Positions 694 to 58,461 of a DNA stretch of 64,000 bases are shown piece after piece; position 1 is the first letter of the stretch, and each line of letters begins with the position of its first letter. The DNA is taken from the NCBI RefSeq assembly GCF_029633865.1, contig NC_079213.1, forward strand, positions 86,701,793 to 86,765,792, in the 5' to 3' direction. A model generated the notes under the pieces. It was not told where the DNA came from. It was given only the letters and a program-made list of their open reading frames with translations, and made no database searches. Position numbers and translations under genes: made by a program. Source of the stretch: Lampris incognitus (Eukaryota; Chordata; Actinopteri; Lampriformes; Lampridae).

Positions 694-15603
<14,910 letters not shown>

Positions 15604-47123: not shown

Positions 47124-49079
47124 GCGCGTTATATTGTACGGCGTAGCCAGGAAGGCGGTGGCGTGTAGGCTGTGCGTCAAACACATAACACCACTTTGCG
47201 TCACCGTGAACGCTCCGCCCATTTGTCATACGTTGGGTATCAATACGAGCTCTTCATGGCATTAGGGCTCTTAGTCCTGGGACAAGGTTGGGTGTGTTCC
47301 ATACATGGGGTTTGGCCCCTCTTTAACACGTAACAGTTAGTATGGTCTCACTGTGTAACGCGTTTAATGACGCTTTGGAATAGGGCTGAACGATTTGGGA
47401 AAATAATCTAATTTCGATTTTTTTAGACCAATATTGCGATTGCAATTTAGTATGCGATGTTTTTTTCAAAGTTAGAGTTCACGTCATCTTCTGTGTTATC
47501 CACTAAAACACAGCAGTAAATCATTTTATAGTATGCCCAACACAACATTCAACATATAAACTGCTTTCCTGTAGGCCAGGCCTACGTAGGGTTGCCAACC
47601 GTCCCTTAAAATACGGAATCGTCCCGTATTTGGAAACTAGAAGACGTCTCCCTTATTGAATTGATAAGGGACGCACTTTGTTCCGTATTTTTGAGAATCA
47701 ATGTCAGACCGGGGTGCAGCGCTGCGTCAGTGTTACTGCTACAAGAATGCGGATGAAAAACGCTGTCAGTGTTGCTATGAGAATGCGCCTCTCATTGACC
47801 AATGAGAAGCGCCGCCAGTGTTGCTACGACACGCCTGTGGCCTGCCCCTTCCCGAGACGCGAGTTTCAAAAACATGGTTAACGTTATAGTGCGGTATGCT
47901 ATGTCAAAAAAACAGCTCCCGTAGGATTTTGTGCCAAAATTGATTTTTTTTGTGCTGTTTTGGCTTCTATAGGGACCAAACTAACAGAAAATGAAGGGTG
48001 CCAAATTTTCTGACCCCCACCCCCAATTCTGGGGGGCCATCTATTTTGGGACCTCCCAGAACAGTAAAATAGAAGTCCGCCTGGGACTACTCTTACTAAA
48101 ATGGCTGTAGAATTGTTATGCTTCAGTTGTATAAAACCAAATTTGGAGGAGATGCAGTTGAGAAGTTGTAGAACAGATCCAAATATCTGTGGCCTGCTGG
48201 TAAATGGTATTACTGATGTTATTCACACTCAAATTGTAAGTTTTGTTTAGGCGAACCTAACAAATTGAATTTCTGCTGTAGTTTATCTGCAGTCCTTCTG
48301 TCCTGGTGGATGGTACAACTAAACTTCCACTTGAAGTACATTTTTCCAGGTGTTACCTATACATAGACACCAGAATTGTGCATCTGGGCCCTGTACTTGC
48401 GGAGGTATTAATGAATTATTTTGGGCATGTAATTTCGGGCGAAAATTCAAAAAAATTGCCTGGGGCTGAAGTGGTTTTTAATGTCCAATTTTTATAATAT
48501 TATAGTTGTTTTGTAGGTTTTAAAATATTCTGAGTTGAATTATAACACTATTAAAACAGCTAGAAGAGTATTTGTCTGACTTTTGGTTCCTTACCTGGGA
48601 CACCCCGGACTGACCCTTGTGCCTATCCCATTCATCATTACTCTCCTCTTTCCACTCCTGCTCTTTTCTTGGCCAATATAACTTTTACAATTATTTTTCA
48701 TGGGCATCCAGTGACAATTAATACTTTACTGAAGGTGTTGACCACTCTGAAAGACATTCCTGTTCTGACTCTGAAAAAATAAGGGTTGAAATGTGGCCAT
48801 TGTAGCATAATCCTTGTTAATTTGGTTCATTTCAAACAGGTGAGATCATAATTAAAGCACAGCTGTGTTTGTAGCTGACTGAAAACAAAAAAGAACAGTA
48901 CTCAAGATAAAATAAAATAAAAATAGGCCAATACGAAAACAACAACAACAAAACAAACAAACACCACAATAGATTTGAAGAGTCAACATTTTGAGATTCA
49001 CATTCATGGAATTGCTGAAAGCAACTACCTGGTAAGTGATACTTTTATTTTAATTTTTTATCATTCAGGTGAAATTTAA

Positions 49080-49530
49080 AACAAGCCTGAAAGATTTATA
49101 AGCCAATGTTTACACATATTTTGACATATATTTACATTGTTTTCCCATTATTAGGTCTAATCTTTCAGTCTGACATGCCCTGATCCAACAATTTTGGACT
49201 ACTAACAGTAAGCTAAGGTGGGCTAAATTTAAACCATGCCCGCTAGATTTAAAAGCCAACATTTGCACATATTTATACTTACATTGTTTTCCCATCATTA
49301 GGTTTCATCTGTCTGGCATGCACAGATCCGACAACCTACAACAACGAACTAGAAAGCTAAGCTAAACAGTAAGCTAAGGTGGGCTGAGGAATGATCTGGT
49401 AAATGTGTCATATTTTTCTGATGAAATTTAAACCAAGCCTTCTAATTCAAATATACGTATATTTACATTGTTTTCCCATCATTAGGTTTCATCTGTCTGG
49501 CATCCAACAAATTGGACAACTTGTGAGCTA
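49080..49530 (+). repeat. Three diverged tandem units upstream of the nuclease/CXC gene
   Basis: Each unit of about 150-200 bp has ttacattgttttcccat(c/t)attagg followed by tctgtctggcat-like sequence and gctaaggtggg. The last unit runs directly into the ATG at 49554. Confidence 0.7.
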
Positions 49531-49553
49531 AGGTGGGATGAGATCTGGTCAAT

Positions 49554-52500
49554 ATGGCAGAGGAATGCAACATTTGTGTGATCTGCAAAGAAGGTGCCAC
49601 CCCTGGCAAGCGACTAGTTAAAAATCCAGCCATGATTGATGACCTACTGCAGGCTTGCAGGGACAGAGTTTCTTTAGGTCAAAGTGATTTTGAGGAACTT
49701 TTCGACTACTTATCTGGCCTAAATGACGGGGAACTGAAATTGGTTCATTATCAGAGTGAGTGTCGAAAATCTATTGTAAACAAGAATAAAATTGACCGTC
49801 TCAAGGCTAACCAATCCCGACCTCAGTCACCTGTCTGTTCTAGAAGAGGACCTGGGCACCCTTCAATTACTACAGGATCTGTTAGACCTAAATGGTCGAA
49901 ATCTGTCCCAAAGGAGCAAGTGTGTTTATTCTCACCTTGTGACTTTTGTTCCAAGGGTGATTCAGAGCCACTGCACTGTGTTCTTTCTGATGCAATGGAT
50001 GAAACGCTTCTTGAAATAAAGCAGCAGACCCAAGATGACCAAGTAAGAATCTGTGTAGCAGACCTAATGGATGCTGGTGACGCTTCAGCTCTTGAAAAGT
50101 ACTATCACAGGGATTGCTTGCGGAATGCAAAACGTACCACAACAATAAAGAAAGATCATGATAATGAATCACTCATTCGCTCTTTATGTGACGAACAGTT
50201 AATCCTTGCCATTCAAAATACCGTCACAGACGATGTTACTCTTGACATGGCTCAGGTCAATGATGCTTACTTGTTGATCCTGAAAAGATATCCCATGGAT
50301 GTCTTTGAGACTACAAACTATCGCAAGCATCTGAAAAAGATCATTGGTGAGCGACTTCCAGATGTCCAGTTCGTAAGCTCACTGCAATGAAATGAGCCAG
50401 ACAAGCTTGTTAAATCAACTGTAGTTAGCAAAGCTATTGATTGCAGTATTTCCACTATGAATGATGGTCAGGTTATTGGCAACCTGAAGAAAGTTGCTAA
50501 CCTACTGCGGGCAGAGATCATGCAAAAGCGCAGCTGGTCATTTGCCGGGATATTTGATAACTTTAAGAATCCCTCTTTACTCCAATTCTTCCTAAGTCAC
50601 CTCCTCTTTGGCAGTCATGTTGTCAAAGTGTTTGGAATGCGGGATGAAGAAGTAGACAAACTGTTGATGTTGCATGCCAGTTTCTAGTACAGAACACTCG
50701 CACTGATCGTCAGGTGAAACATCAGCCAAAGAAAGATGATGCCTTTCGGCAAAATGTCCAAACACCCCTCTCAATCGGACTGCCCCTTGCTATCCACTCT
50801 AGCGTGCGTGACAAAATCCTTGTCCAGAACCTCTCAGATGTCTACATTGGAAGTGACTACTTGAAGATCCTTGACTTAGAAAAAAGTGTGGAGCAGTCTG
50901 TTCTTCAACGAATGAAGGATACTGGCGGATTTTGTCTCCCTGACTTTGTGAAGAAGGGTGTGAACATCTGGTTTGCTATTGACAATATTGATCTTTTGGA
51001 AGACACAGCCACTGGGCAAGAAACCTTCCATGGCACAGTGGTTGTAATCAACCAGCAGGATGAAGATGGAGACCTGATGAACCAACCACTTGTTATAACA
51101 GAAAAACCTCTCACGGCATCACCTCTGGCATTTGATATAAACTTGCTGCAGGAGCCAATGATCAAAACCACTCCATTGAGATTTGAGTCTGTGATAGGAA
51201 ACTGAAACAATCTCATTTCCCAAGACTTCACTCACACCTGGGCATTCACAAACTACCTTGCAACTGATGATAACAGGGGGGCAACCTCAACTGAACCGCA
51301 GCTGGCAAGCAAACAGGCCCAGAACAGTGAAGAAGAGAGAAGCCATGCTGAATCTAATAACGACAGAAATCAAGATGACTCTACTGTGTCGATCAAAGAA
51401 CAAAGGCGTAAATCAGTGAAATTGAAGAAGGAAGATGTGACGCCAACTTGGGCTGCAACTAAATCTCTACTGTTATCTCAGTCCTCTAACAGTTGCACCT
51501 CAACAAACACACGGGTGATTGCTCCACTGTTTAAGACCTTGCCAACAGATTATGCTACCCTCTATACCGCTTTGAAGTTAACCCAGAGTATCTCTGCCAC
51601 TGTCATTGGCCCTCACAGAAAAACACTGACAACTCTAGATCTTGACCTTTACTCCCGTGCATTGAAGATTCAGCAGTCAGTTGGAAACACCAACTGGATC
51701 CTAAGAGCTGGAACTCTTCACATTGCATTTGCTGTGTTGCATGGTCTAGGTAAAACAGTTGATGGAAGTGGCCTTGACATATGTGCTATTGAAAGTGGTG
51801 CATACACATCAGCAGCTCTTCGTGGTATCTTTGGTGGCAAAGTTTACAAATGAGGCCTTGAGTACCACATCACTACGAGCCTTGCAATTTTGATGTTGCG
51901 ATTTGATGCCATCTTGTCAAAACTTCCAAATTGTCCAATTCAGATGCAATGCATTGCTCTCAAGGACAAACTCCATGAACGTAACCCACTGATGGTAGAG
52001 ATATTTGAAGAAATCCAATCCTGGTACACAGAAAATGTCAAGCCACTCGAAGATGAAAAAGACATTGGTGAGTTCACTCAATTCTTAACCCAGTATCTTC
52101 ACCAGGTAGAGAGTCTTCTTAATCTCATCAGCTCTTGCCGCTCAGGTGACTGGGAGGGATACTTGTCTTCATTAGAGAATCGCATCAAGTATTTCTTTGC
52201 TCATGATCTCCTCAACTATGCCCGCTTGATGCCAATCAATCTTGCTCAAATGAATGCTGTTGAAAAAGATGACCCAGAAACATGGGATGCACTGAAGTCT
52301 GGTGCATTTGTGGTGGCAAAGTCAGAGATACCCTTTACTCATCTCTTCACTGATCAAGCCCTCGAGCAGGAAATCAAGAAGCTAAAGGGACATGGTGGGA
52401 TGGTAGGACTCAGTAGAGATGAAGCAGCTCTGGACCGGCTGATCATTGCCACACCTAATCTTGCTGATCTAGTGAATCAGTACCTCAAGAGCTTCCCAAA

Positions 52501-55162
52501 AGATTCCAGATCTACTTCAAGGACAGAGCATTATCATCTCTCAGGAGAGATTGCATTGAGGTCAAGAACAAATGCACTGAAGCTACGTGACTTGATTGAG
52601 TTGCACTGTGGAGGCAATCCATTCAAAGAAAAAACACCAATAAAGAGTCTTGTTTCATCAGCGCTTGTGACAGATGCGGCAAAGCATGATATTCTCCAGT
52701 TTACAGAAAAGGGTCAGAAGCACTTTGAGGAGTTTGTTTCTGAACGTTTGATCGCTACGTCAACACTCTCAGTGTGGGACAAAATGAAGAAACTCAAGTT
52801 GAAGACCTTTTCAAACTGGATGGAAAAAACAAAGGTACGTGTTGGAGACAAAGTCATCAAGTTGCGTGAGGAACGTGAACTGCTTGGAAGATTTTGTTGT
52901 GGTTACACCGCCCCGAGCTGCCTCCCCGGCACGTTCAAGCCACTCCCCCAGCTCGGACGTGCCGGAAACATCCGAGCGCTCGGCTCGCGCTCTGAGACGA
53001 GCGCTGCACTGCACCGGGTGTTTGCCATCATCCATCAGGCACACCTGTGGCAATCAGGCAGCCTTCTACAAAAAGCCTCCCAGAACGTCTCTCAGTGCTT
53101 CGACGTACTGAACCCTGCGGTGAAGTTCTGATAAGCCCTCCAGCGTTCCTTGCTTTCTGTTTATTCCCCAGTGTTATATCTTCGTGTCTCTGTTTCCTCC
53201 CAAGACTCTCCCTCCGCGATTTCCGCGTCTCCCTCGTCCCCAGCGACCTTCACGTTTCTCCCCGGACCTCTCCTGCGATCTCCCCCCTTGTCCCTCTACC
53301 TGGACCCCTCCTTTCGGACTCGACTTCCCGGATCTCGGACCTGGACTTTCTCGGACAACCCCTCTTGGATCACGGACTGGACTTTCTCGCCAGGTGCACG
53401 CACATTTCTTCAACACCTCCTGGTCATTTACATACCGCACCACACATTGGCTAAAAACACTCACACATAGTTATACACGCAAACCACGGGACACCACACA
53501 TAGTTTATTCACACATCCCACTAACAGAACGCCTTTTTTCACCATACATTTCCCTCCCACAATAAACCCCCCATTGTAGACTTAGAAGTCATCTCGTGTC
53601 TGTCTGTCTTGGGTTTCGCCACACGGGTCAGGTTCTGGTGCGCGAGCATAACAGATTTCTCATCATCCAAGGCAGTCGACCAAGTCTAGTTCCCAAACTT
53701 GAGGAGACAATTGGAGACTATGAAATGTTAATGGTTCCCCGCTCTCTGTGTGCTGTGGATGGAACCTTGTACATCCCTACAGACAAAGCTAGTCTCATGC
53801 ATGCAATTGAAGATGCCAAGGCAGAGCTCCTTGAAGCTGTCCCAAAGCCTGATCCAATGCAAGAAGATCCTCCAGGTGTCCCTATCAAAGTTCTAATAGT
53901 TGATGCCATTGGTGTGCTTCAGAGCATGAAAAAGACACCAACCATGCGGAAGCTGTCAGACCTTCAGGACGCATTTAACAAACGCATCAAAACAATGATG
54001 GCTGGTTATCATGAGGGTCGAGTTGTCTTTGATCGATATATGGATGAGTCATTAAAGAAGAAAACTCGACAGAAGAGAGCAACTACTTCTGTAGAATACG
54101 GAATCCATCCAGAGATGAAGTTCACTATGTCGATCAAGAATCTCCTCTCTGCATCATTGACCAAGAAGAAGCTGACATGTGAGTTGGGCCAGGGACTGCT
54201 ATAGTATTTCTCAAAGGACAGTTCTTTCCTACTGGTTGTCATCTATGACACCATCAAGAGACGTGATTTTGTGGAAGCACACACACATGAAGAGGCTGAT
54301 ACCCTAATACCCCATCAAGTCCTTGCCTCTGTTGCCAATGGTGCCTCACGAGACATATGTGTTTGGTCACCCGACACTGATGTCCTCTTACTGCTACTTG
54401 ATTTAGTATGTGAATGCATTGCAACTCCAACTTCTCTGACATTTTCAACAGGCAAAGGTGCAAAGAAACGGGAAATAAATGTTTTTGAGCGTGTTCAAGT
54501 TATTGGACGTCAGAAATGTCAGGGATTACTTGGCCTGCACAATTTTTCTGGTGCTGACTGGGGAGGAAAATTTGTTGGAATCTCCAAAAAGACGTGGATC
54601 AACGCATACCTGAAGCTTGATGATGATGATCCTGCCATTGACTGCTTCAAGGCCCTTGGCAAGGGTTCCATTCCCCCTGAGCTTATCAGTGGTGAGCTCC
54701 CATCACTGGTGAAGGCATTAGAGAATTTTGTGTGCTGTGTTTACAGCTCAAAAGGGCCACACAAAACTGCCATCACTCAGATGGGAACTATTCCGATCCA
54801 AGAACCTGGAGGGTGAGATGCTACCTCCAACTCGTGCTGCATTGCTACCCCATATCCTACGTTCCAATTATGTCACAATGCGAGATAAGTCATACAAGAC
54901 GAATTGCCCTGAGCTTCCACCAATCGAACAGAATGGATGGAGTTCAGTGAGTGGCGGATATGTTCCAGTCAGGTGTCTTGCCCTCCCTGCACCACAGGCA
55001 GTACTTGAGCTAATCAAATGTGGCTGCAAAGTAGGTTGCAAGGGACAGTGCAGCTGCTCAAAGAATCACCTGCCTTGCACTCCTCTCTGCAAATGTTATG
55101 GTGGAGACTGTGCAAACACAACAAGTGAGTACATTCCAGAAGAGGACAATGCTGATGAATAG
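49554..55162 (+). pseudogene. Degraded ~1600-codon gene: paired zinc-knuckle modules, XPG/PIN-like nuclease, CXC domain
   Basis: Mobile-element-type protein, not a known host gene. Two N-terminal modules are seen: C5/C8/C11...H65/C70, and C129/C132...H185/C188. After a long helical middle come VLIVDAIGVLQ (about 53887), HEEADT (54286-54303) and SPDTDV (54367-54384), spaced like the acidic active-site motifs of XPG/FEN-type PIN nucleases. A CXC-like cysteine cluster (CGCKVGC...CSCSK...PCTPLCKC) follows at 55019-55115. Lesions: stops at 50388, 51203, 51851 and 54202, frameshifts near 50690 and 54780, and a 759-bp LTR. Frames otherwise agree across the whole length. Long XPG-bearing proteins are known in Academ DNA transposons; that placement is an inference. 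Confidence 0.7.
52895..53653 (+). mobile_element. Solo LTR inserted in the nuclease/CXC gene
   Basis: It begins tgttgtgg and ends cataaca (TG...CA) and is flanked by gattt on both sides (52890-52894, 53654-53658), a 5-bp duplication typical of Ty3/gypsy-like elements. A polyadenylation signal aataaa lies near 53562. LTR plus duplication (764 bp) interrupts a reading frame that matches exactly on both sides. No internal retroelement genes remain. Confidence 0.85.
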
Positions 55163-55559
55163 ATCAAGTATTATTTAAATTCCTTTATCATCACCTGTAT
55201 TTGTTTTGTTTTGTTGTAGATGTTTTTGGGGAATTTAGCAGCTTTTTCTTACTCTCTATTTACCTACTGGCGCAACATAGAGTAACTTTTTTTTCAATTG
55301 GATACATCATATATAAGGTTCATATAATCTAACAGTAATAATATTTACTATTTTATTTTTAAAAATAAATACTATATACATATATACAACCTTTTACACA
55401 CATCTTACAAGTTCAAACAGCTCATATACATACTATACAAACACTATACATACATATATGCAGTGAAATTGCATTTTTTTTTACAGGTGACTGCTGCTGA
55501 ACTACCACGTCTATTAAATTTTGAAGCACAACTTGAGCTACAGTTCTGACTGTACGATT

Positions 55560-57060
55560 AAGCTGACTCTCCGAACACTGAGTAACTCCAGCATCCCCAA
55601 GAAGATGTCCAGTGGGAGGACAAAAGCCAAGGCAGTGGTCACAGATGTCCTTTCTCCAAAGGCAGTGAGGTGATCAACAAATTAAAAAGTGCTGAGAATC
55701 CACTCCCATTCCCCTACAGACGGATGCCTCTAATAAGGGCAATCGCAAGATGTTTCCCTTGGCCATACAGTTTTTCACTCCAGAGAATGGGATCACCAAC
55801 AAGTTAATTGATTCTGTTGAAAATCCAGATGAGTCTGCTGAAGGAATAGTCAATGCCATCGAGCTCTCTTGAAAACCTGGGCCTGACTTTGGATCATGTG
55901 TCTGCATTCAGTGCAGATAATACCAATGTCAGCTATGGCATTCACAATTCAGTCTTCACAAAATTGAAGCAGTCCAACAGTGACCTCCTCTAAGGCAACT
56001 GCCATGTGCGTATTGTCCATAACACTGAAACATGCCCTGGATCAGCTCTTAGTTCAAGGTGTACAGTTTCTTTTCCACCTCTGCCAAAAGGAGAGAGTCC
56101 CTGAAGGAGTTCTGTGCCTTTTGTGACGTCGAGTTCCATGAAATCCTGTGCCACGTGGTGACCAGATGTCTGTCACTCAACCCTGCAATCACCTGCCTGC
56201 TGCTGAACTGGACTCCTCTGAAGTCGTATTTCATCTGCATTGGTGAGGAATGTCCAAGGCATCTGCAAGCATTGCTGAGGTTGACAGAGGATGCTGCTGG
56301 GTTTGAGGAGGCTGATCTTGTGGAAGTGTACCTCCTCTTCTGCAATAACGTCCTGTACCTCTTTGAAAAGGTGGTCAAAAAGCTGGCGAAGGATGCCACC
56401 ACATCAGCTGACCTCTATGTTCTATGGACTCTTTTCTGGGAAGAGTAATTCAGAGAAGTGATGATGGGTTCTATGGGTTCCTAACAAGTCATCAGCTTCA
56501 GCCTCTCTCGCCATCTGATGCTGATGTTGCCAGGCAGGAGTTTACAGCCTTCTTAAACACTGCCATCAGTTATGTCCAGAAGTGGTTCAACTTTTCAGAG
56601 GACAACTGGCTCTTTCACCTACAGCCCCTCTCTCTGGCATCTGGGAAGATCTCCTATGATGACATGGAGAAGATCACTGAGCGGCTTCACCTGGTGTGCA
56701 GGCTTAACATCTCTATGGATGAGCTATATGATGAATGTATTACTGCCAACAGCATTCTAGAGCACCTCACAGAGCATCAGGAGTGGGTGTCCAAGGGAAC
56801 GGCTGAGAGGTGGATGGCAATTCTCCAGGCAGCTGACCTTCCAAACATCCTGGCTGTGGTGTCCTTTGTCCTCAGCATCCCATCCTCTATGTGGTGAGGA
56901 TTACCTCTTCAATGAAAAATAAATGGACAGATGTGCGGAAAAAATGTTCTGCTGCACTAATGAATGAAGAGTGAGCTGATCGTCACTCTGAATTATGAAA
57001 TGTCTTGCTCAGAGTTTTAAACTGCAGCTGTGGAGGATAAATGACTGCTTACTGCTGCAA
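55560..57060 (+). pseudogene. hAT-superfamily transposase, multiply broken
   Basis: Pieces in different frames: GNRKMFPLAIQFFTPENG (from about 55730), then 56059-56448 (FHEILCHVVTRCLSLNPAI, where hAT proteins have TRW) and 56424-56897 (WVSKGTAERWMAILQAADLP and ending LSIPSS). The usual C-terminal dimerisation segment (after IPSSNA) is frameshifted and partly deleted at 56890-56960. Stops lie at about 55870 and 55992. The N-terminal BED finger was not found on this strand. Confidence 0.6.
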
Positions 57061-57843
57061 GAGATCAAAAAAAGTACAAGTGGAAAAAGTAGGCCTTCAC
57101 CAAACTCAGAGCTAACACTGTAACTGGAGGTAACACTCTGACTGGAGCTATAGCACTGTAGCTGAATTTAGCAAATTCAGAGCTGCTTGTGGTTCTGGAG
57201 CTGCTTGACAAATTTTTGTGTGATGTCTTCCATGGTTCATTGTTTATGAAATACATACATTTTCAATTATTAATTGTTCCTTTGTTCAGAAGATGTCTTG
57301 ATGTGTACAGTACAAAGTACTGTTGGTAGGCTACACAAGTGAAATCTATATAACTATTGATATAATTGTTATTGGTATGAAGTGTAGTCATGGCCTTTGA
57401 CCTTTGAAGCACAAAAAAGTGCTTTTGTTTGCAGTATATTCAGCCATGAACCTTTGTGGAATAATTTAAAGATCTGAAATCGAAAATAGTTTTGCACTAA
57501 TGATTGTTTTATTCCAAAGAATATGTGAAATTGCTGTTTTGCGTGCCTGCAAAACATGTTGCATGTTAAAAAGTTATTTAATAAGATTTTTTTTCAATTC
57601 TAAAGAACAAGAAAATACAGTTTTGCACCGTTAAAAGAGTTGTTTGCACTACTGAAGAACATGTTACATGTTAAAAGAAAGTTCTTGAATAAATACATGC
57701 CAATGTGAAGATTGAACAGTTGAACTGTTATTTTGCGCTGACCAAATACAATTCTTTAATGGCAATCAGTTACACATGTATTTCTATGGCTCAAAAATAG
57801 GAAACTGATCAAATTCAGGTTTGTGTGTTTGTCTGCACAATAC

Positions 57844-57948
57844 CTGACGGTGTAGCATCTTCTTTCCAAAATAGGTCCACACAACCGACATACTGCTCCT
57901 CTTTGACACTAAAGTCACCTCTTCAGTGTTCGGTTCTGCCGAGGCCAT
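57844..57948 (-). pseudogene. First exon of a BED-finger hAT transposase (remnant)
   Basis: The minus frame of 35 codons starts MASAEPNTEEVTLVSKRS and reads SVVWTYFG, the N-terminal signature of ZBED1-like hAT transposases. A GT donor-like gtattg follows. It lies about 270 bp inside the right end of the 47381-58218 unit and points inward; no matching downstream exon was found. Confidence 0.5.
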
Positions 57949-58283
57949 GTTCACAATATACTGCTAGAATCAAAGCATAGCATGGCAAGTTGTTTTCTTC
58001 ATTTACTGCTCTCACTCGCATGTCTCATGAGCATAGGGTAGCGTGTGTGAATGTGAACTCCACATGGCCTGGTGTTTCCGACCGTCTGATTAGTTAGATT
58101 ATATGTAACATAAAACATTTTTTTTAAAAACTTATTTTAATCGCAGTCTTTGCGATTTGAAAATTGTGCTCTACTACATTGCGATGTCGGTTTGAATTCG
58201 ATTAATTGTTCAGCCCTACTCTGGAATCTGATTTGTAATCATGAGTTTTAGCAAACGAGTTTCAAAACGTTATACATCAAGTT

Positions 58284-58461
58284 TATGGGGCTAGAACAGT
58301 GACATTAAATTTTGGCAACAAAAGTAAAATTTGGCATTGAAAACAAAACCTGAATTGAAAAGGGTAACAGCATTGAAACAGTTGAATTGGAAAAAGTTGT
58401 ATTAGTACTGCCAAATTTTATTTTTGATGCCAAAATTTAATGTCACTGTTCCAGCCCCATA
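58284..58461. mobile_element. Long inverted repeat, MITE-like
   Basis: Arms of about 55 bp (tatggggctagaacagtgac... and its reverse complement ending ...cagccccata) surround a 68-bp spacer. It lies just outside the right end of the hAT unit. Confidence 0.6.

Follow-up and report, generated by a model that had tools for sequence, protein, structure and literature searches.

A dead, 3'-truncated transposon, probably of the Academ kind and with a likely XPG-like nuclease gene, nested in hAT elements of Lampris incognitus

Within a 64,000-nucleotide stretch of the Lampris incognitus genome (the window; contig NC_079213.1, positions 86,701,793 to 86,765,792), the segment 47887-55305 is most probably a dead copy, truncated at its 3' end, of a recently amplified, independent DNA transposon of Academ type (AcademX lineage), lodged in a hAT element that we call hAT-B. 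We observe the copy number of this transposon, its fixed ends, inverted termini and 3-bp target duplications, together with one long gene and a domain order shared by three diverged families. The elements, the gene and its domains located below lie on the plus strand of the window, with no strand assigned to the target duplications of hAT-A.

Results

A nest of four elements

The first-pass annotation had read 47381-58218 as a single large unit with hAT ends around a nuclease gene. It is instead a nest made of an outer hAT element (hAT-A), hAT-B, the nuclease-gene transposon and a solo LTR. The outer boundaries had been drawn correctly: hAT-type inverted termini stand at 47381 (TAGGGCTGAAC...) and 58218 (...GTTCAGCCCTA), with 11 bp identical in inverted orientation, and they are flanked by the target duplications CTTTGGAA (47373-47380) and CTCTGGAA (58219-58226), equal in 7 of 8 bases. 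Short inverted termini with an 8-bp duplication, here 7/8, are those of a hAT element. The left end of hAT-A occupies 47381-47586 and recurs in the genome, where 34 of the 42 listed matches to 47381-47886 span only about positions 1-207 of that query. At L046, the sole such locus examined at both ends, matches to 57832-58218 (the right end of hAT-A) and to 47362-47587 lie about 550 bp apart, too close for the gene to fit between them. An inverted repeat with 66-nt arms, 86% complementary and 46 nt apart, is found at 58284-58461, just beyond the right hAT end.

hAT-B is represented by a left part at 47587-47886 (TAGGGTTGCCAACCG...), which matches L043, L044 and L050 at 84% and looks as if it reaches the apparent start of a predicted first exon, and by a remainder at 55306-57831, which matches other copies at 79-92% (matches over 500 bp) and whose right boundary is approximate, being taken from L046. 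The remainder holds two broken frames, 56053-56448 and 56412-56897, which by resemblance we take to be hAT transposase; a Pfam search of these frames gave zero matches.

Copies with their own ends and 3-bp duplications

Searching the genome (1.48 Gb) with window positions 50000-51000, we scored 40 of 65 candidates, the window's own copy among them, and found at least 39 other copies at 97-98%, of which 20 were fetched. A common 5' start, with the letters TAGTGCGGTATG at 47887, is seen in 19 of these 20 (BLAST starts 47880-47887), and in the twentieth, L016, similarity begins inside the element; no cross-matches occur among the 300-bp 5' flanks of the 19. At the other end, 14 of the 20 get to or nearly to 55305, and all of these except L013 continue beyond it in common sequence that is absent from the window and measures about 720 bp in L015. 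Once short extra stretches had been added to the fetched copies, the 3' end could be read as ...CATACTGCACTA or a close variant in 13 of the 14 copies processed (L025 lacks it).

Both ends are readable in 12 copies, 11 of them 7.3-7.6 kb long and one, the internally deleted L015, 6.2 kb. An exact 3-bp target duplication flanks 11 of the 12 (TAT, TTC, TAT, TAT, TAA, TAA, ATA, TGA, CTG, TAA and TTA; L021 has none). All 12 have inverted termini, which are imperfect: the alignable part is about 85-155 bp long, is 83-93% identical and starts at base 1 in eight copies and at base 29-41 in the other four. The window keeps the 5' terminal inverted repeat, at 47887-48031, whose partner is the 3' end seen in other copies.

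These copies bear directly on a reading that the first-pass annotation had put forward, that a hAT element carries the nuclease gene as cargo. In the window the gene is indeed bracketed by hAT ends and their 7/8 duplication. The copies, however, begin at a fixed internal boundary and have separate ends of their own, with a duplication of 3 bp and not 8. No match to window 47381-47886 or 55306-58218 exists within the 20 fetched loci or the 13 extra 3' stretches, so that hAT ends do not recur around the gene in the flanks covered (2.0-3.1 kb on the 5' side of 19 copies and 199-818 bp on the 3' side of 13), and two hAT-B copies, L050 and L051, continue through the insertion site without the gene. 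Within these flanks none of the other gene copies proved to sit between hAT ends with 8-bp duplications, hAT cargo is refuted for the nuclease gene family, and we regard it as exceedingly improbable that a hAT moved the gene. Fixed ends, 3-bp duplications and hAT-free fetched flanks together argue for an independent transposon that landed in hAT-B, itself in hAT-A, and the anatomy agrees with the other suggestion of the first-pass annotation, a separate large DNA transposon nested inside.

Across 3.3 kb of coding sequence, 15 copies including the window's differ pairwise by 2.2% on average (1.4-3.3%), or by 1.6% with CpG columns masked, and this low divergence points to a recent spread of the family. 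When the genome was searched with the 5' terminal repeat, there were 128 first-look candidates; the 40 scored all match over the full 154 bases at 94-100% and so do not point to a vast population of short non-autonomous derivatives. A further copy (L005/L012, G000:C3:86785939-86786940) lies beyond the window, about 34 kb downstream of the copy described here.

How the window copy came to be

The hAT-B copy L050 is uninterrupted at the insertion site and reads CATGGCTAACGTTACCCAGTC, where the window reads CATGGTTAACGTTA followed by TAGTGC. Since L050 reads through where the window passes into the transposon, the insertion happened there, with TTA on the transposon's left as the expected 3-bp duplication. 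The 5' end of the window copy is intact. On the right, transposon sequence breaks off at 55305 and hAT-B resumes about 650 bp beyond the insertion site, as judged against L050 and L051. This jump implies a deletion in which the transposon lost about 720 bp from its end and hAT-B lost about 650 bp.

The gene is further interrupted by a 759-bp solo LTR (52895-53653; TG...CA, AATAAA) between copies of a 5-bp duplication, GATTT, at 52890-52894 and 53654-53658. This LTR is missing from all 16 fetched copies that cover its site. A genome search with it gave 1950 first-look candidates and 40 full-length matches at 97-100%, the window's own included, and its matches include two pairs about 5.2 kb apart. 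The window copy of the transposon is dead. In the history that we propose, the transposon would have entered a hAT-B element already sitting inside hAT-A, the solo LTR would later have inserted into the transposon gene, and a deletion would have stripped the 3' end of the transposon along with the adjoining hAT-B sequence.

One long gene with a candidate DDE core

The long broken frame described earlier, from 49557 to about 55162 and, without the 759-bp insert and its duplication, of about 1610 codons, is borne out, as are the features noted in it: two N-terminal C..C/H..C modules, the motifs HEEADT and SPDTDV, and a C-terminal CXC cluster. As a broken transposon gene (49557-55162, from its open reading frames) it comprises the two modules, a DDE-like core, an XPG-like nuclease part and the CXC tail. 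In the window the frames run 49542-50390, 50648-51205, 51206-51853, 51854-53131, 53566-54204, 54205-54816 and 54722-55162. Other copies have open frames over parts of the gene (1240 codons in L016, 1101 in L024 and 1037 in L026), and in none of the copies examined in the window's own family (family A) did we see the whole frame intact. A composite reading of the copies gives the succession two C..C/H..C modules, DDE-like core, a middle stretch, nuclease-like part and CXC cluster.

A candidate DDE core lies at 50970-51850 in the alignment of families A, B and C, with DNID.LEDT.. (D1), LDLDLY (D2), R.G..H and IESG (E). The blocks DNID, xDxxLY, R.G..H and IESG are conserved in that alignment, in which family B is without some stretches, and the D/D/E residues are putatively assigned from these blocks. 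The CXC cluster, CGCKVGCKGQCSCSKNHLPCTPLCKC at 55017-55112, has seven cysteines that are invariant in four rows of alignment A1, and against Pfam it has zero matches.

Just upstream of the gene start, at 49059-49539, a unit of about 150-180 bp is repeated three times in tandem, in diverged form. These repeats occur in most fetched copies too and are possibly regulatory. At L018 (G000:C10:41498716-41499279) a frame is reported open for 2204 codons, longer than the gene; this locus stops matching the window at 54817, and its frame therefore continues into other sequence.

A likely XPG/FEN-like nuclease domain

Judged from its sequence, the nuclease-like domain (53880-54620) is likely XPG/FEN-like. 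It shows the succession IVDA, VFD..SLK..R, HEEADT, SPDTDV and GAD..GISK in two alignments that also served as profiles, A1, built from the first four sequences, and A4, built from five families. The EEAD block, which reads HEEADT or QEEADT, and the DTD and GxD blocks are invariant in all five families of A4, the V(F/W)D block in the four rows that reach it and the D(G/A) block in three of three. The motif order of FEN/XPG nucleases (N-terminal D, VFD..K..R, E-A-E/D, DxD, GxD) is found in both A1 and A4, and by eye the archaeal FEN1 counterparts come in the same order: IDG, VFDG..P.LK..TR, EGEA, DYD and GTD..GIG. Residues that are catalytic in FEN1 are among those compared.

The earlier XPG/PIN call rests on these ordered motifs, kept in diverged families, and on EXO1 as the best, non-significant PDB match of A4; it did not gain a significant FEN/XPG profile match. 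Searches of Pfam, NCBIfam and PDB with single sequences and profiles returned nothing significant, and no helicase match was seen in the protein. The best PDB matches of the single sequences and of A1 are unrelated proteins; against A1, designed TIM barrels come out on top and FEN nucleases are not ranked. With A4 the top of 177,635 PDB sequences is EXO1, in four entries of one protein, at non-significant E values of 0.52-0.95 and over two collinear stretches. Comparison with FEN1 alignments by hhalign gave non-significant probabilities of 0.16-0.41%, one run putting the motifs in register and another aligning 18 unrelated columns.

A shuffle test used 3000 shuffles each. Against a FEN profile the five transposon rows ranked 6, 7, 211, 230 and 1203 of 1633 scored sequences, so that two of the five stand out and three do not, and against the transposon profile three FEN1s ranked 13, 20 and 104 of 2068. 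A motif pattern built from the transposon rows and run on shuffles as well matched three of the five rows and none of the three archaeal FEN1s; a self-built pattern that misses all three FEN1s is silent on homology.

The Pfam XPG_I model found five places in the whole genome, none of them a transposon place among those listed by nucleotide or protein search; the four that we excised are, by our own reading, presumably exons of host XPG, GEN1, EXO1 and FEN1. Beyond the fish, no relatives of the gene were established in IMG/VR, prokaryote genomes or phages. A phage family of unknown function, phrog_11481, matches family B at E 0.0058 over HEEADT..SPDTDV, and one of the five A4 members at E 0.04; the eight phage tblastn matches displayed are all at E of at least 2.

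An alternative is that the transposon is real and its 'XPG' part has another PIN/NYN-like or unrelated fold, FEN-like in motif only. The lack of a significant profile match, the hhalign values, the failure of A1 to rank any FEN nuclease and a single-sequence AlphaFold model of the window protein that is too poor for fold use (mean pLDDT 32.4) speak for it. Five motif blocks in FEN order, with core blocks that do not vary across the five families, and the four EXO1 sequences heading the A4 list speak against it, and we consider a merely FEN-like motif set rather unlikely. We continue with an XPG/FEN-like domain as the likely reading.

Diverged relatives and a young family

Searching the genome at the protein level, we obtained 1807 first-look candidates, and the 150 scored comprise the window's family, mostly at 90-97%, one family at 38-41% and further families at 28-35%. 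Families A, B, C, D and E are represented by L024, L053, L052, L063 and L064, respectively. All five share the XPG/FEN-like motifs, the others being 26-33% identical to L052 over both alignments and 27-33% in A4, and the cysteine-rich tail is common to the three families read far enough. L052 (G000:C3:76660000-76666400) has a frame open for 1560 codons with the domain order of the window's family, L053 has the same order in broken pieces with the N end absent, and L054, L063 and L064 are additional relatives seen in part. The frame upstream in L053 (L053:3318-4331) opens with a stretch that looks like LTR-retrotransposon integrase, perhaps a further nested insertion.

A search with the L052 protein gave 2963 first-look candidates, the best-scoring 97 of which, L052 included, are all at 98-100% protein identity; 94 of these 97 are stop-free over the matched stretch and 26 have a stop-free open frame of exactly 1560 amino acids. 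From such sequences, family C looks like a very recent burst. The frame at L052 is flanked by a 274-nt inverted repeat (L052:1-274 and 5989-6262, 99%) that reaches the edge of the fetched stretch. As a terminus of family C this repeat was not borne out: in a search that skips very common words, the adjoining outward DNA had a single match of 209 bases elsewhere and otherwise matched only over its last 50 or so bases.

Discussion

AcademX is the best filing for this transposon, one made from its anatomy and a published description. The nuclease of AcademX is XPG, a domain that the first-pass annotation likewise places in Academ. AcademX is a lineage of the Academ superfamily, for which PMC10045372 cites Kojima 2020. 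Our family has the inverted repeats with fixed ends of such an element (a common 5' end for 19 of 20 copies, inverted termini for all 12 read at both ends) and, in 11 of 12 copies, exact duplications of a length within its range: PMC10045372 gives 3 or 4 bp for AcademX and 9 or 10 bp for AcademH, and relates this difference to the nuclease and the helicase that they encode. Academ itself is a DDE/D superfamily, abundant in bivalves, where curated elements average 5565 bp (PMC10294476). For zebrafish, medaka and stickleback, PMC4746887 lists it at 0.01-0.02% of the genome; the figures in PMC4705583 for three Xiphophorus genomes are 0.02-0.21%.

The same reliance on description leaves some weight for an independent DNA transposon of a non-Academ or undescribed superfamily that carries its own XPG-like nuclease. 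No part of the protein is named by any profile library, and the termini start with TAGTG, the reverse complement of the terminus motif CACTA, so terminus look-alikes exist. On the other side, nuclease, transposase and 3-bp duplication form the combination published for AcademX (PMC10045372), and Academ is among the superfamilies that PMC4746887 reports from zebrafish, medaka and stickleback. We judge a non-Academ origin improbable and retain AcademX.

How would such a protein work? We propose that DNA is bound by the zinc modules at the N end and by the CXC tail, that the DDE-like core makes its cuts at the inverted termini and inserts these into the target with a 3-bp stagger, and that a flap, hairpin or gap arising in excision or repair is trimmed by the XPG/FEN-like domain. 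Tentatively, and at well under even confidence, we suggest that this genome holds a freshly expanded and probably still mobile AcademX-type family whose DDE transposase and FEN/XPG-type nuclease share one polypeptide, with the nuclease carrying out an obligatory cutting or trimming step. In the open-licence literature on Academ with XPG we found no text describing the nuclease, and to our knowledge, which extends to open-licence papers, its role in Academ transposition is unstudied. The intact frames of family C are natural material for asking what that role is. That several families of a transposon with an XPG-like nuclease, one of them young and with intact frames, occur in this fish contrasts with the low Academ share in the teleosts listed above, and the nested elements of 47381-58218 need no longer be misread as one.

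Compared with known systems, the element resembles AcademX in joining a candidate transposase to a likely nuclease, in its 3-bp duplication, in its large size and in its teleost host, Academ being reported from teleosts, and it differs in length, at 7.3 kb against the 5565-bp mean of curated bivalve Academ (PMC10294476). With AcademH it would share the Academ superfamily, whereas AcademH has 9-10 bp duplications and a helicase, of which there is no match here. The hAT elements are its neighbours in the window, but the outer hAT has an 8-bp duplication and ends of its own, where the nuclease element has 3 bp and other ends. To FEN1, EXO1, GEN1 and XPG the likeness is in the order of acidic motifs and the GxD..GxG(K) block; the similarity is sub-significant in every profile test, and here, unlike in those nucleases, the domain is fused to a transposon protein.
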